A DNA stretch of 64,000 nucleotides from Methanohalophilus portucalensis (GTDB lineage: Archaea; Halobacteriota; Methanosarcinia; Methanosarcinales; Methanosarcinaceae). Shown here one piece after another: positions 1,675-45,776 of this stretch. Each line of letters starts with the position of its first letter. Within the stretch, counting starts at the first letter, position 1. The notes below the pieces were generated by a model. That model saw only the letters and a program-made list of their open reading frames with translations, was not told the origin of the DNA and searched no databases. The stretch spans positions 1,859,750 to 1,923,749 of the forward strand of contig NZ_CP017881.1 of NCBI RefSeq assembly GCF_002761295.1. The letters run 5' to 3'. The translations under genes were made by a program, and so were the position numbers.

Positions 1675-4158
1675 ATGACCCTCTGGACTCTTCTCTATCC
1701 TTTAAAAGGAAAGGTCACAGTAATGCTGATTAAAGACCGAAAAAAAACTCCTGCAATAGTAGGTGAACTAACCCTGCGAAGTACCAGCGCAGGACCACGA
1801 CCCTTACGATTTCTGGTATCGAAAGATAAGAAGCAGGATTACCGTTCACCCGAGGAATTTATTGAGCTACTCAGACGTTCGGAGAGAATATTGATTACCA
1901 GGCAGGGAAATGCCAAAACCCACCAAAAAATTATCGAAATGCTCGGAGGTTTCCACCTTACGGGTGAAATGGTAGATGTGTGTCGTTTTTGTCTGCTCAA
2001 TAAGGAATTCAATTTTGTGAACAAGAAATCTATTTCTCATCAGGGAGAACGCATCTGTGAAACGTGTGCACAGGAAGAACTGAAACGAGCGCTGCGTAAT
2101 TCCCAATGCCATTATTCTGATGAGGCCATACAGCGTATATTTGATGTTTTAAACAAGACAAAAGACCTTGACCGCACCATAGGCATGCTAAATCCTGAAG
2201 AAATTGATTCGGAAGTTACAAGATACGACACAATAGCTTCAAAAGAAGATCAGAACCCATATCCAATAAATAAACTTCCAATATCCGATCAATTCAAGAA
2301 ATCATTATTAAAAAAATCTAAAACCCTATTACCGGTACAGAGTATTGCTGTACGCAAGGGTTTACTAAAAGGAAATAACCTGCTTGTGACCTCTGCAACA
2401 GCTACCGGTAAAACATTGATCGGGGAGATGGCCGGTATTGAGAATATTCTTAAAAAAAGAGGCAAGATGCTTTATCTTGTGCCGCTGGTTGCTCTGGCAA
2501 ACCAGAAATATAGCCAGTTCACTGGAAAGTATAAAGATTTTGGACTCCAGACCTCAATACGCATAGGAAGTTCTCGTATAAAAACGCGCAAAACGGAAAA
2601 AATGTCACGTTCTCTTGATACGGACATTATTGTCGGAACCTATGAAGGGATCGACCACATTATGCGTTCTTCCAAAGCAGATATGCTGGGTCAAATTGGT
2701 ACAGTGGTTATAGATGAAGTCCATATGCTGGAAGATGAAGAACGCGGGCACCGTCTTGATGGTGTTATCGGACGTCTCAAATATGCATCACCAGGGGCAC
2801 AGTTCATTTATCTTTCTGCAACAGTAGGAAGTCCCCACGCCCTTGCAAAACATCTGGATGCTGAGCTTGTGGAGTATGAACATCGTCCGGTCCCGATTGA
2901 GAGACACCTTATATTTTGCCCCCAGCAAAGCAAATTGAGAATAATGACCCGTCTTATACGTGAGGAATATAATCAGGTATCTTCAAAGGGTCATAAGGGC
3001 CAGACCATCGTCTTTACAAATTCCCGTAGAAACTGCCACCGTCTTGCAAATGCCCTGCCAATCCCGGCATCTGCTTATCATGCGGGACTGGCCAATCCGG
3101 AACGTAAAAAAGTTGAGGACAGATTTGCCTCCGGAAAACTTCCTGTGGTAGTGACAACAGCAGCCCTGGCAGCAGGTGTTGATTTCCCTGCCTCACAGGT
3201 GATATTTGAATCCCTTGCAATGGGAATTGACTGGATAAACCTGCAAGAATTCTTACAAATGCTTGGAAGAGCAGGAAGACCGGACTATCATGACAGAGGC
3301 GTGGTAGTTTTACTTGCAAGTCCTGATAAGACATACGGGGGCGGACAGGCCGTGACAGAAGACGAGATGGCGGTAAAACTGCTCAAAGGCCAGATGGAAG
3401 AAATGAATTTGAAATATGGCCAGGAAGAGCAGGAAGAGGAAGTACTGGCTTCGGTCGCGGTCACAAATTCAAAAGCCGACCTGAACTATATATGCAGCAA
3501 GATGGTGGAGGATATTGACCTTAATTCCATTGTAAATAAATTGAAAAGATACCGATTCCTGACACAGAAAGGCGATGCTATCAAATTGACCCGAATGGGC
3601 GGTATTGCAGCCCGACATTTCCTCTCTGCTTCACGTGCGTTCCTTATCCGGGATGCAGTACGTGCAGGTCAGGACCCGATCGAGATTGCAGCTAATCTAG
3701 AATTCTTCGATGCGGTTTACTTTAAGTTTGCACCCCAGATATCAGCAGCGCTGAACGTGAATATGCCATCCCGGGTATTTCAGGGAGCTGCTCTGGATAT
3801 TGTATTTGAAGGAGATAATCTATCCCAGCTGGAAGAGAAGATCCGGGATCAACTCTTCGAATTTGCTACTGATTTTTTGACATGCGGATGTAAAGAAAGC
3901 CCTTATTGTGGATGTGCTGAAAAGAATTTTTCCGAAATGATAATCAGGATGCGCGCTAGTGGTCGCGATCCAGAGAAGATTGCAGCCAGGCTGAACGAAA
4001 AGTATGGTATAAGTGCCTATGTGGGTGATCTTTATGGTTACCTTGATGGAGTTATCCGCAACCTTGATGCCATTGAAATGATGGCAAGTGCCCATTCAAA
4101 ACCGGATATAGCAAAACAGGCAAAGGATCTGAAAAAGAGTGTGGAAGCCGGCAGATGA
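1675..4158 (+). CDS. Archaeal SF2 DEAD/DEAH-box helicase with zinc knuckles
   Basis: 827 residues. An N-terminal archaeal extension carries a zinc knuckle (C103, C106, C128, C131), followed by the two RecA-like helicase domains: Walker A SATATGKT at 240-247, DEVH near 350, SAT, and motif VI QMLGRAGRP. A second cysteine group (CGCKESPYCGC) is near 740-750, followed by a helical tail. The order resembles Hel308/Ski2-type helicases, and the zinc-bearing version is a methanogen/Archaeoglobus family (DUF5814-like). Expected role: ATP-driven DNA or RNA unwinding in repair or RNA processing. An alternative start is Met17 (1723), preceded by GGTCAC. The TATA position favours 1675, while archaeal homologues should decide. 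Confidence 0.85.
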   Translation: MTLWTLLYPLKGKVTVMLIKDRKKTPAIVGELTLRSTSAGPRPLRFLVSKDKKQDYRSPEEFIELLRRSERILITRQGNAKTHQKIIEMLGGFHLTGEMVDVCRFCLLNKEFNFVNKKSISHQGERICETCAQEELKRALRNSQCHYSDEAIQRIFDVLNKTKDLDRTIGMLNPEEIDSEVTRYDTIASKEDQNPYPINKLPISDQFKKSLLKKSKTLLPVQSIAVRKGLLKGNNLLVTSATATGKTLIGEMAGIENILKKRGKMLYLVPLVALANQKYSQFTGKYKDFGLQTSIRIGSSRIKTRKTEKMSRSLDTDIIVGTYEGIDHIMRSSKADMLGQIGTVVIDEVHMLEDEERGHRLDGVIGRLKYASPGAQFIYLSATVGSPHALAKHLDAELVEYEHRPVPIERHLIFCPQQSKLRIMTRLIREEYNQVSSKGHKGQTIVFTNSRRNCHRLANALPIPASAYHAGLANPERKKVEDRFASGKLPVVVTTAALAAGVDFPASQVIFESLAMGIDWINLQEFLQMLGRAGRPDYHDRGVVVLLASPDKTYGGGQAVTEDEMAVKLLKGQMEEMNLKYGQEEQEEEVLASVAVTNSKADLNYICSKMVEDIDLNSIVNKLKRYRFLTQKGDAIKLTRMGGIAARHFLSASRAFLIRDAVRAGQDPIEIAANLEFFDAVYFKFAPQISAALNVNMPSRVFQGAALDIVFEGDNLSQLEEKIRDQLFEFATDFLTCGCKESPYCGCAEKNFSEMIIRMRASGRDPEKIAARLNEKYGISAYVGDLYGYLDGVIRNLDAIEMMASAHSKPDIAKQAKDLKKSVEAGR

Positions 4159-42061: not shown

Positions 42062-43990
42062 TTAATTTAAAGGAATCGTGAAAGTAAAAGTACTTCCTTT
42101 TCCGACCTCACTTTCTATCCAGATATCTCCACCATGCATCTCCACGTATTTTTTCACAAGTGCAAGACCCAGGCCAGTACCACCATATTCCCTGTTAGTT
42201 GAAGAATCGGCTTGCTTGAAAGGATCAAATATACTTTTTTGTTTATTTTCTGGGATGCCAATTCCAGTATCTGAAACTGATATTTGGGCAGTGTTACCAA
42301 CAGTGCTCAAACAAACCTTTACCTCTCCGTTTACAGGTGTGAATTTGATTGCATTACTCAGTAAGTTATGCAGGATTTGTTTAACTTTTACATTATCTGC
42401 AGATATTTCAAAAAAATCAGTAGTATTGATAAATTGGAGATTAATAGATTTTTTCATTGCCAGAGGTTTTACCAAACCAATTACGATTTTAATCGTTTGT
42501 GACAGATTAATTTGTTCAGGCTCATAATCCATCTTACCAGCTTCAACTTTTGAAATATCAAGAATGTCATTTATTAAGTCTAGCAAGTGGCTTCCGCTAT
42601 TGAAGATATTGGATAAATACTTTAATTCTTTCTCATTCAGATTACCAGAACTGTTTTGATCTAATATTTGTGAATAACCAATTATGGAATTAAGAGGAGT
42701 CCTTAGTTCATGGCTCATATTTGCAAGGAATTCCGATTTGGTACGATTTGCTTCTTCTGCAAGAATTTTTGATTGAATAATAGCATCTTCAGCATTTTTG
42801 CGATTCGTAATATCAATATGGGTGCCTGTCATCCTTATGGGTTTATTTCCGTCCTTACTCCATTCAACAACACACCCACGGTCTTCTATCCACACCCAGT
42901 GACCTTTCTTATGTTTCATACGCAGTTGACACTCATAAAATTCAGTTTCGCCTGCAAAATGTTTGTTTAACAATTTTTCAGCCCGTTTGTAGTCGTTGGT
43001 ATGAGTCAGGTTAATCCATGTTTGAATATTAATTGGTTTAAGTTCATCAAGTGTATATCCAACAATTTCAGCCCACCTTTCGTTAAAAAATGCCTCACCT
43101 GTCTGCACATACCAATCCCAAATTCCTGCTTTAGTACCTTTTAATGCAAGATCCAATCGTTTTTCACTTTGCTTGACTTTTGCTTGCGCCACTTTATGGT
43201 TCGTTATATCCTGAACGTGTACAAGATAACCATCTATACAATCCATACATAATGCAGATATTTTCACATTTACATAAATAATACCTGAACGACTTGTATT
43301 ATACAAGTCTAGTTTTTTGACAAGTTCAAAATCAAAAGTCGTTTCATACTCAACCGTTTCACCGGCAAGCAACTGTTCTCTTGTATAAGCAGGTAAATTT
43401 GGGTCATCAAAAAGATTGAAACCTTTTACCTCTGCAACATCAGATATACCAAAAAGCTTCAAGCAGGAAGTATTCACATCGATTAAGTGTCCTTCAGAAT
43501 TGTAAACTTCAATTGGGATTGGCGATTCTAAATAAATTTCCTTAAACCTTTGTTCACTTTTCTTTAATGCCTTTTCCACAGATTTACGTTCAGTGATATC
43601 TATGTGTTGCAGAAGGACATTTGTTGGTTTTTCTTTAGAAAGAGGTGTAACTTTCATCAAAAACCAGCGCTGCTTTTCCGGGCTATGGCAGGGATATTCC
43701 AGTTTAAAAGTATTTTTATTGCCATATATTACATCTTTTATGCCATCTAATGCAATTTGGGCTTCATCTGAATTTTTACCTGTTGCTTTTTCACATACCT
43801 TCAGATAATTGGCACCTGCATTACATTCTTCTGGATTCAAACCATTATCTTTTGCAAATTGTTTCCAGCTCTCATTGGCATAGGATATTATTCCATCTGG
43901 AGAAATAATTGCGATATTATCTTCCCATAAATCAAATAATTCCTTATTCAAAGAATCCCCATTGGTTGTTTTAGTAAAATTAAAATGCAC
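42062..43990 (-). CDS. PAS-domain sensor histidine kinase
   Basis: 642 residues, no membrane helix: three PAS domains (about 18-130, 145-265, 280-395; the third is a PAS_3 type with YTLDELKPINIQTW and HVKGHW-like ends), a HisKA dimerisation domain with the phospho-acceptor in NMSHELRTPLNSIIGYSQIL (near 425) and a HATPase with LLSNAIKFTP, SVSDTGIGIPENK and GGTGLGLALVKKYVEMHGG. A soluble redox or ligand sensor. No response regulator is adjacent, typical of Methanosarcinaceae. It lies convergent to DUF1638. Confidence 0.93.
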   Translation of the reverse strand: MHFNFTKTTNGDSLNKELFDLWEDNIAIISPDGIISYANESWKQFAKDNGLNPEECNAGANYLKVCEKATGKNSDEAQIALDGIKDVIYGNKNTFKLEYPCHSPEKQRWFLMKVTPLSKEKPTNVLLQHIDITERKSVEKALKKSEQRFKEIYLESPIPIEVYNSEGHLIDVNTSCLKLFGISDVAEVKGFNLFDDPNLPAYTREQLLAGETVEYETTFDFELVKKLDLYNTSRSGIIYVNVKISALCMDCIDGYLVHVQDITNHKVAQAKVKQSEKRLDLALKGTKAGIWDWYVQTGEAFFNERWAEIVGYTLDELKPINIQTWINLTHTNDYKRAEKLLNKHFAGETEFYECQLRMKHKKGHWVWIEDRGCVVEWSKDGNKPIRMTGTHIDITNRKNAEDAIIQSKILAEEANRTKSEFLANMSHELRTPLNSIIGYSQILDQNSSGNLNEKELKYLSNIFNSGSHLLDLINDILDISKVEAGKMDYEPEQINLSQTIKIVIGLVKPLAMKKSINLQFINTTDFFEISADNVKVKQILHNLLSNAIKFTPVNGEVKVCLSTVGNTAQISVSDTGIGIPENKQKSIFDPFKQADSSTNREYGGTGLGLALVKKYVEMHGGDIWIESEVGKGSTFTFTIPLN

Positions 43991-44114: not shown

Positions 44115-44200
44115 ATATAAAAATATTTATCCAGAGGTATTGCGAACTTAAAAGTACTTCCTTTTCAACTTCATTTTCCACCCAAATACTACCTCGATGA
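44115..44200 (-). pseudogene. Decayed histidine-kinase C-terminus (minus strand)
   Basis: The minus strand reads GSIWVENEVEK, then after a one-base shift STFKFAIPLDK, clearly matching GGDIWIESEVGKGSTFTFTIPL at the end of the intact kinase at 42062. The DNA also aligns with 42070-42140. Only about 25 codons remain and an A is missing in the A-run. Confidence 0.65.
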
Positions 44201-44205
44201 AAACA

Positions 44206-44360
44206 CTAAAAAAATATTCAGACACAGGATTGGGTTTATCCGTTGTAAAAAAATGGTTGAGTTACATGGCGAAAAGGTGTGGGTAAAAAGTCAATACGGC
44301 AAATACAGTGTATTCGGATTCAACCTTCCCTTAAACCTCAATGATAAAAATTTACAATAA
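44206..44360 (+). pseudogene. Decayed histidine-kinase C-terminus (plus strand)
   Basis: The plus strand reads DTGLGLSVVKK in one frame and, after loss of one A in a 7-A run near 44250, MVELHGEKVWVKSQYGKYS and VFGFNLPLNL, ending TAA at 44358. This is the G2 box and tail of a HATPase domain. It lies head to head with the minus-strand remnant. The rest of 43991-44483 has no other recognisable content. Confidence 0.65.
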
Positions 44361-44483: not shown

Positions 44484-45776
44484 TTGCTCAAAATAGTTGT
44501 AACACTAGCTTTGTTATTATTCTTATTAACAGGTATGGCAGGGGCCTGGCAGCCAGAAACGTGCAAGGATTGTCATCTTGAAAAATATGAGATATGGAAT
44601 TCTTCTGCACATGCAGAATCCTTAAACTCTGCAGGGGGGTCGGTTGTTGATATTGAAAGGTGTACTGAGTGTCATGTTGAATCTTCCATTAAAGAAACCT
44701 GGGGGAGGGAAGATGTGGAAAACACAATTGAACCAATCACCTGTGAAGTATGCCATCTCCCCCCGGATGAAGGCTATGATGCCCATCTGGACACTCCATC
44801 AGCCCATATCCCGGAAGTTACCCTTTCTGCTGAAATGTGTGGGAACTGCCACAGGGATTCCCACCATCCGTTCATCGAGGAATGGGGTGAATATGACACC
44901 GAAAGCTTTGAGATGGAGTCCATGGCAAGTCATTCCGAACCCACTGATGTGGCGGAACCCTTCATTCTGGACAGGGATAACTCATGTGTCGCATGCAAGA
45001 GCACTGATGGGGCTATTCCATCTCTGGAAGATGAAAGCATCTATGGCCTAAACCTGAATGATGTTCCACAACCTGAATATGTAGAAGAATGGCGTGTCAC
45101 CTGTGTAGCCTGCCATGAACCACATTCCGCCGAATACCGTAGAGAAGGGCCTCTTCTTTGTGGAAATTGTCATAATGGTATGGGTGCCACGGCAGATGGC
45201 ATGACTACGGAAATCCACCATCCCAACTGGGAAATGTATAACGATTCCATCTATAACACAGGCAACCACCCTGAGATCGGGTGTTCGGATTGTCATATGG
45301 CTTCAAGGCAGTACAATGACACCACACATGAAACAGCCGTGACAGGCCATACGTTCGATTATGAACCCGAACTGTTATTCAGTTTAGAATCATCCGGGGA
45401 ATGCTATGATTGCCATGATGAAGAGTTTGCAGAGGTTATTGAAACAAGACAGGATTTGATTGCGCAAAGGATTGAAGAACTCAAAAGTGTACAGAACAAT
45501 GCCAGTGTTGTTCTGGAAAATCTCAATGGTACGGCTTCCTATGAAACAAAACTTGAGGATTACAACAATGCAGTCTTTTACATGCATTTTGTTGAAGAGG
45601 ACGGAAGTCTTGGCATTCACAACATGGAAAAGGCCAATGAATACCTGGACAAATCAGATAAATTATTCAATTCTGTAACTGAAACTGAAGAGCCTGTTGA
45701 GCAACCCGGATTTGAAGCAATTGTTGCAGTCTTTGGCCTGATGTTTATGTTCTGGATAGCAAGGAAAAGGGATTGA
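44484..45776 (+). CDS. Nine-motif multiheme cytochrome c with a PGF-CTERM-like anchor
   Basis: 430 residues. Signal peptide about 1-21 (ending AGA). Then eight CxxCH motifs (CKDCH at 27-31, CTECH, CEVCH, CGNCH, CVACH, CGNCH, CSDCH, CYDCH) and one CVACK between the fourth and fifth. CxxCK is the lysine-ligated active-site heme of nitrite reductase NrfA and octaheme tetrathionate reductase. After the hemes, DGSLGIHNMEKANEYL resembles the C-terminal helix of that superfamily. The end PGFEAIVAVFGLMFMFWIARKRD is a PGF motif, a membrane helix and basic residues, an archaeosortase-type tail. The start is TTG after GGGGGT. Located on the outer face of the membrane; role in extracellular electron transfer or N/S-oxide reduction is open. 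Confidence 0.85.
   Translation: MLKIVVTLALLLFLLTGMAGAWQPETCKDCHLEKYEIWNSSAHAESLNSAGGSVVDIERCTECHVESSIKETWGREDVENTIEPITCEVCHLPPDEGYDAHLDTPSAHIPEVTLSAEMCGNCHRDSHHPFIEEWGEYDTESFEMESMASHSEPTDVAEPFILDRDNSCVACKSTDGAIPSLEDESIYGLNLNDVPQPEYVEEWRVTCVACHEPHSAEYRREGPLLCGNCHNGMGATADGMTTEIHHPNWEMYNDSIYNTGNHPEIGCSDCHMASRQYNDTTHETAVTGHTFDYEPELLFSLESSGECYDCHDEEFAEVIETRQDLIAQRIEELKSVQNNASVVLENLNGTASYETKLEDYNNAVFYMHFVEEDGSLGIHNMEKANEYLDKSDKLFNSVTETEEPVEQPGFEAIVAVFGLMFMFWIARKRD

Follow-up and report, generated by a model that had tools for sequence, protein, structure and literature searches.

Outward electron transfer in cytochrome-bearing methanogens has been studied mainly via the multiheme cytochrome MmcA. 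Lysine-ligated heme, on the other hand, is an unusual heme type of nitrite reductases, and NrfE is an additional CcmF-like protein for attaching it. The solved protein nearest to the one analyzed here is OcwA of Thermincola potens (PDB 6i5b), a nonaheme cell-surface terminal reductase in which a c554-like tetraheme half is fused to an NrfA-like pentaheme half (PMC6703420). OcwA is an Fe(III) reductase that also binds flavin and has slow reductase activity on nitrite and hydroxylamine (PMC6703420). Its hemes 2 and 5 are five-coordinate under the His-His motifs 281/282 and 380/381, and the pair above heme 5 is unbound to it (PMC6703420).

We analyzed a window of 64,000 nucleotides (G000:C1:1859750-1923749) from the genome of the halophilic methanogen Methanohalophilus, which encodes a nine-heme c-type cytochrome with the architecture of OcwA. 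The nearest known protein carries CxxCH at heme 5, and what is new here is CxxCK at that position. We found no methanogen multiheme cytochrome with a CxxCK site described in the open literature, although the present one may be listed in the supplement of a 2015 survey of cytochromes in archaea.

Gene structure, heme sites, and export

The features of the gene are collected in Table 1. A GGGGGT ribosome site lies immediately 5' of the start codon, and the product carries eight CxxCH motifs and one CxxCK (CVACK, residues 168 to 172), the fifth of the nine. This is the arrangement given in an earlier note on the same DNA, and a second reading of the open reading frame and its motifs confirmed it. 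All 18 cysteines of the protein fall within heme motifs, and the CxxC[HK] count never exceeded two in 20,000 shuffles of its residues. Close homologs (86 to 94% identity) were found in named Methanohalophilus records. Upstream of the gene, window positions 44170 to 44360 hold a frameshifted remnant of a histidine-kinase C terminus, with 47% identity (E value of 2e-9) to the kinase at 42062 to 43990. Elsewhere in the genome (G000:C1, ca. 237 to 238 kb), another multiheme protein of 524 aa (L089) combines CxxCH with wider-spaced heme-like motifs.

Table 1. Features of the nine-heme cytochrome gene, in window coordinates
Feature	Position	Strand	Remarks
Nine-heme c-type cytochrome gene	44484..45776	+	430 aa, TTG start; homologs in 33/112 family genomes
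Sec-type signal peptide, residues 1-21	44484..44546	+	By eye; cleavage after AGA; Ala21 invariant
Heme 1 CKDCH, from residue 27	44562..44576	+	Motif scan
Heme 2 CTECH, from residue 60	44661..44675	+	Matches c554-type open heme of OcwA; missing in octaheme relatives
Heme 3 CEVCH, from residue 87	44742..44756	+	Motif scan
Heme 4 CGNCH, from residue 119	44838..44852	+	Motif scan
His127-His128	44862..44867	+	Aligned to distal His pair of OcwA heme 2 (HH281/282)
Heme 5 CVACK, from residue 168; putative NrfA-type lysine heme site	44985..44999	+	OcwA heme 5 = NrfA heme 1, by alignment
Heme 6 CVACH, from residue 207	45102..45116	+	Motif scan
Heme 7 CGNCH, from residue 226	45159..45173	+	Motif scan
His245-His246	45216..45221	+	Aligned to OcwA heme 5 distal pair (HH380/381) and NrfA QHPE catalytic His
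Heme 8 CSDCH, from residue 267	45282..45296	+	Motif scan
Heme 9 CYDCH, from residue 307	45402..45416	+	Motif scan
C-terminal three-helix bundle with GIHN, residues 315-399	45426..45680	+	AlphaFold2 pLDDT >90 across most
PGF-CTERM-like tail, residues 408-430	45705..45773	+	PGF, hydrophobic helix, basic end

We infer a surface location for the cytochrome. The archaeosortase-type tail proposed in the earlier note stood in part: a PGF-like tail is visible and archaeosortase A is encoded by the same genome (E value of 9e-91), but the PGF-CTERM score of the protein (16.3 bits) falls below the Pfam cutoff of 18.8. The domain matches 14 of 28 aligned homologs at an E value of ≤0.1 (best, 1.6e-8), and several octaheme relatives are without PGF.

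Distribution and conservation of the CxxCK site

The search among relatives that the earlier note had suggested recovered homologs (E value of ≤1e-10) in 33 of 112 genomes of the host family, representing 5 of its 14 genera. Not one of the 29 full-length homologs of the same type (the window protein included) has lost CxxCK; they come from several genera and, in the case of L079, from another class. The heme 5 lysine is encoded by AAG in 22 of them and AAA in 7, and the codons of both cysteines are also mixed. Complete conservation together with this synonymous variation indicates that CxxCK is not the mutation of a single strain. At the same site, the more distant homologs (L035 to L040 and L080) have CxxCH, with CxxCQ and CxxCM in one each.

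L079 (positions 1917 to 3515), whose host belongs to another class in the same phylum, has CASCK as its heme 5 motif and CGHCM at the heme 2 site. The only broken copy, that of M. euhalobius (L006/L033), is a pseudogene, with TGA at Cys168, Phe at Cys171, and TAG at the Trp of ETWGRED. Plasmid and viral contigs searched with a distant homolog gave no match.

Placement in the NrfA/octaheme superfamily

A family profile built from 24 homologs matched OcwA (6i5b; E value of 3.9e-44) and OmhA (6qvm; 7e-40) best in the PDB, followed by octaheme nitrite reductase (8rv0; 4.6e-18) and NrfA (2j7a; 3e-17). Against Escherichia coli NrfA, hhalign (96.8%; E value of 2.7e-10) begins with CxxCK on CxxCK and keeps the next four hemes in register; in profile alignments, CVACK also falls on the CxxCK of Desulfovibrio vulgaris NrfA and of the T. 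ammonificans octaheme nitrite reductase. The Pfam family Cytochrom_C552 was recognized in 22 of 28 homologs, with 3.8e-13 as the best value. An AlphaFold2 model from 28 close homologs was poor (pLDDT of 48) and was set aside, and the one used, from a 40-sequence alignment, reached a pLDDT of 80.6 and a pTM of 0.80; it is heme-free and weak at residues 47 to 57 and 65 to 83. With this model Foldseek ranked OcwA first (5e-9), then OmhA (4e-7), octaheme nitrite reductase (8e-7), NrfA, and HAO, the superposition being loose (TM of 0.57 and rmsd of 10.7).

Profile, AlphaFold2, and Foldseek thus recover the OcwA-type architecture, with nine heme sites, a c554-like half followed by an NrfA-like half, and a three-helix bundle, while profile and hhalign place CxxCK at the catalytic position of NrfA and octaheme nitrite reductase, with four CxxCH after it. 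The earlier note had read the CxxCK as a catalytic-position heme and the GIHN helix as a mark of this superfamily; the CxxCK-on-CxxCK alignment agrees with the former, and for the latter, G377, H379, and N380 are invariant among homologs and lie in the predicted bundle. Membership of the NrfA/octaheme superfamily, nearest to OcwA, is supported by sequence profiles and by the predicted fold.

In the tree, the archaeal CxxCK proteins form a clade of their own (97/99) that excludes the CxxCH homologs as well as OcwA and OmhA; their grouping with NrfA/ONR was not rejected (p-AU of 0.29), a result that fits descent of the lysine from NrfA/ONR as well as its independent gain.

Candidate distal residues of hemes 2 and 5

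In the Methanosarcinaceae members, seven histidines outside the CxxCH motifs are invariant (residues 43, 101, 150, 214, 262, 289, and 379), as many as there are CxxCH hemes other than heme 2, so that no invariant distal His remains for heme 2 or heme 5. This count would fit two five-coordinate hemes, as in OcwA. The pairs HH127/128 and HH245/246 match those over OcwA hemes 2 and 5 by alignment (residue numbers in the paper and in the chain differ by 29, which was allowed for). Every one of the 36 homologs with heme 5 has His or Tyr at residue 246, Tyr occurring in several lineages, and the 4 without this heme all have Gly there. With heme 5 bound through CVACK, the lysine is its likely proximal ligand.

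Heme 2 is missing from most g7 members, from g9, and from L011/L012; nine of the homologs without it also lack the HH127/128 segment and four keep one His, while L018 has heme 2 and no pair. The heme-5-less paralogs are nested in the CxxCK clade (one loss), and heme 2 was lost about three times. Coupled loss of a heme and its distal His is only suggestive, since it involves one event for heme 5 and some three for heme 2/HH127, too few for an independent-pairs test. In the paralogs in question (L030, L042, L043, and L045, all from one genus), heme 5 is gone along with its distal His; ahead of heme 9 these paralogs have a CKKCH site, which is also found in L028 and L041, where heme 5 is kept.

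In seven homologs (L013, L014, L015, L028, L041, L043, and L044), which come from two genera, an in-frame TAG occupies one exact column that aligns to Glu76 and lies between hemes 2 and 3. The next Tyr codon varies between TAT and TAC, and PylS is present in 7/7 host genomes, making this a candidate for pyrrolysine in a multiheme cytochrome.

Possible function

With moderate confidence, based on sequence, model, and analogy, we read this protein as an exported, probably membrane-anchored archaeal surface oxidoreductase of the OcwA type with a lysine-ligated, open heme 5. By profile and predicted fold, hemes 1 to 4 form the c554-like half and hemes 5 to 9 the NrfA-like half capped by the three-helix bundle; His245-His246 would lie over heme 5, as the OcwA alignment suggests. 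By analogy with OcwA, electrons from the membrane chain would travel along the hemes and exit at the open heme 5, perhaps also at heme 2, toward outside acceptors such as Fe(III), humics, or flavin-like shuttles; small N-oxides might be reduced too, either incidentally or to detoxify them. The earlier note's suggestion that the protein conducts electrons outward gains from the fact that the nearest solved relative is such a protein.

The nitrogen and sulfur oxide reductases that the note also considered fared differently. No conserved Arg precedes CxxCK in the homologs where NrfA has its substrate-binding Arg (ca. 20 residues before the Lys), and no conserved Tyr follows heme 7 as the catalytic Tyr (CHVEYY) does after NrfA heme 3. 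We found no partner gene common to the genera and no NrfH-like partner, the fumarate reductase gene tfrB adjoining the cytochrome gene in Methanohalophilus only. A canonical nitrite or tetrathionate reductase is unlikely, because the Arg, the Tyr, and conserved partner genes are all absent. An NrfE-type extra lyase is not evident in the genome, since it encodes just two PF01578 proteins.

It might still be argued that heme 5 is a true NrfA-like active site, working on nitrite, hydroxylamine, or another small N or S oxide in detoxification or respiration. The CxxCK and the aligned His stand at the catalytic position, the Cytochrom_C552 matches extend to most homologs, and the octaheme relatives share the 3+CxxCK+4 order with octaheme nitrite reductase. 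Without counterparts of the NrfA Arg and Tyr, with Tyr at 246 in several lineages, with neither an NrfH-like partner nor conserved neighbors, and with a clade with NrfA/ONR neither supported nor rejected, we regard such a reductase as quite unlikely. A plain carrier or conduit, in which heme 5 would be six-coordinate (Lys/His or Lys/Tyr) and the lysine would merely tune its potential, also seems unlikely. A distal ligand would be at hand, as 246 is His or Tyr whenever heme 5 is present; distant CxxCH, CxxCQ, and CxxCM homologs retain the same His, and paralogs without heme 5 persist. However, the aligned His of NrfA is catalytic and not a heme ligand. The aligned OcwA pair likewise leaves heme 5 unbound (PMC6703420).

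The last alternative, that CVACK is a decayed site no longer holding a heme, we consider highly improbable. That no NrfE-type extra lyase was found, and that two distant homologs have CxxCQ and CxxCM, could be taken as signs of decay, but both cysteines and the lysine are kept through synonymous codon changes in 29 homologs from several genera and one other class, and homologs without the site lack the entire segment along with its distal His. The OcwA-type surface oxidoreductase is thus the reading we retain, and the protein is a promising candidate for a surface redox enzyme of methanogens. More tentatively, and with considerable doubt, these proteins may be a methanogen surface reductase family with two substrate-type hemes (heme 5, bearing the lysine of NrfA, and an optional heme 2); both octaheme routes proposed from OcwA, heme 2 loss and heme 5 loss, would then occur within one archaeal family, and some members apparently contain pyrrolysine.

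The cytochrome would be a second exported methanogen multiheme cytochrome, unrelated to MmcA, with a recognizable active-site heme and kept in several genera of one family. Its homologs vary naturally, from the full nine hemes to loss of heme 2 or of heme 5, and with Lys, His, Gln, or Met as the last residue of the heme 5 motif, so that gain and loss of catalytic hemes in the NrfA superfamily can be tested on them.

Comparison with known systems

Seven-heme MmcA of Methanosarcina is likewise a methanogen surface cytochrome, but it can be aligned with the nine-heme protein only at CxxCH. A separate MmcA-like seven-heme protein in the same genome gave only weak, CxxCH-driven matches; with no full-length homology, MmcA membership was dropped, in agreement with the earlier note. 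Octaheme tetrathionate reductase (OTR), which that note had also brought up, has its CxxCK at the second heme rather than the fifth, and this likeness was abandoned, as neither an OTR family nor any OTR-named PDB entry matched by sequence or fold.

Octaheme nitrite reductase (Thioalkalivibrio and Trichlorobacter; PDB 2ot4 and 8rv0) has CxxCK followed by four CxxCH, as here, and its whole 3+CxxCK+4 order recurs in the octaheme archaeal relatives; its catalytic Arg and Tyr are absent from the Methanohalophilus protein, and identity in the fold alignment is about 14%. Hemes 1 to 5 of pentaheme NrfA correspond to hemes 5 to 9, CxxCK to CxxCK and the QHPE His to His246, but our protein has four additional hemes and is without the Arg and Tyr, and neither an NrfH or NrfBCD partner nor NrfE was seen. 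OmhA, the undecaheme S-layer cytochrome of Carboxydothermus ferrireducens, matches in profile and fold over most of the length and differs in its eleven hemes and in the CxxCH at the heme matching CVACK. OcwA shares the nine-heme order, both halves, the aligned His-His pairs over hemes 2 and 5, the three-helix bundle, and, as far as can be inferred here, the surface location. The Methanohalophilus protein departs from it in being shorter and archaeal, in its PGF-CTERM-like tail, and in carrying CxxCK at heme 5, where OcwA, like at all its other hemes, has CxxCH.
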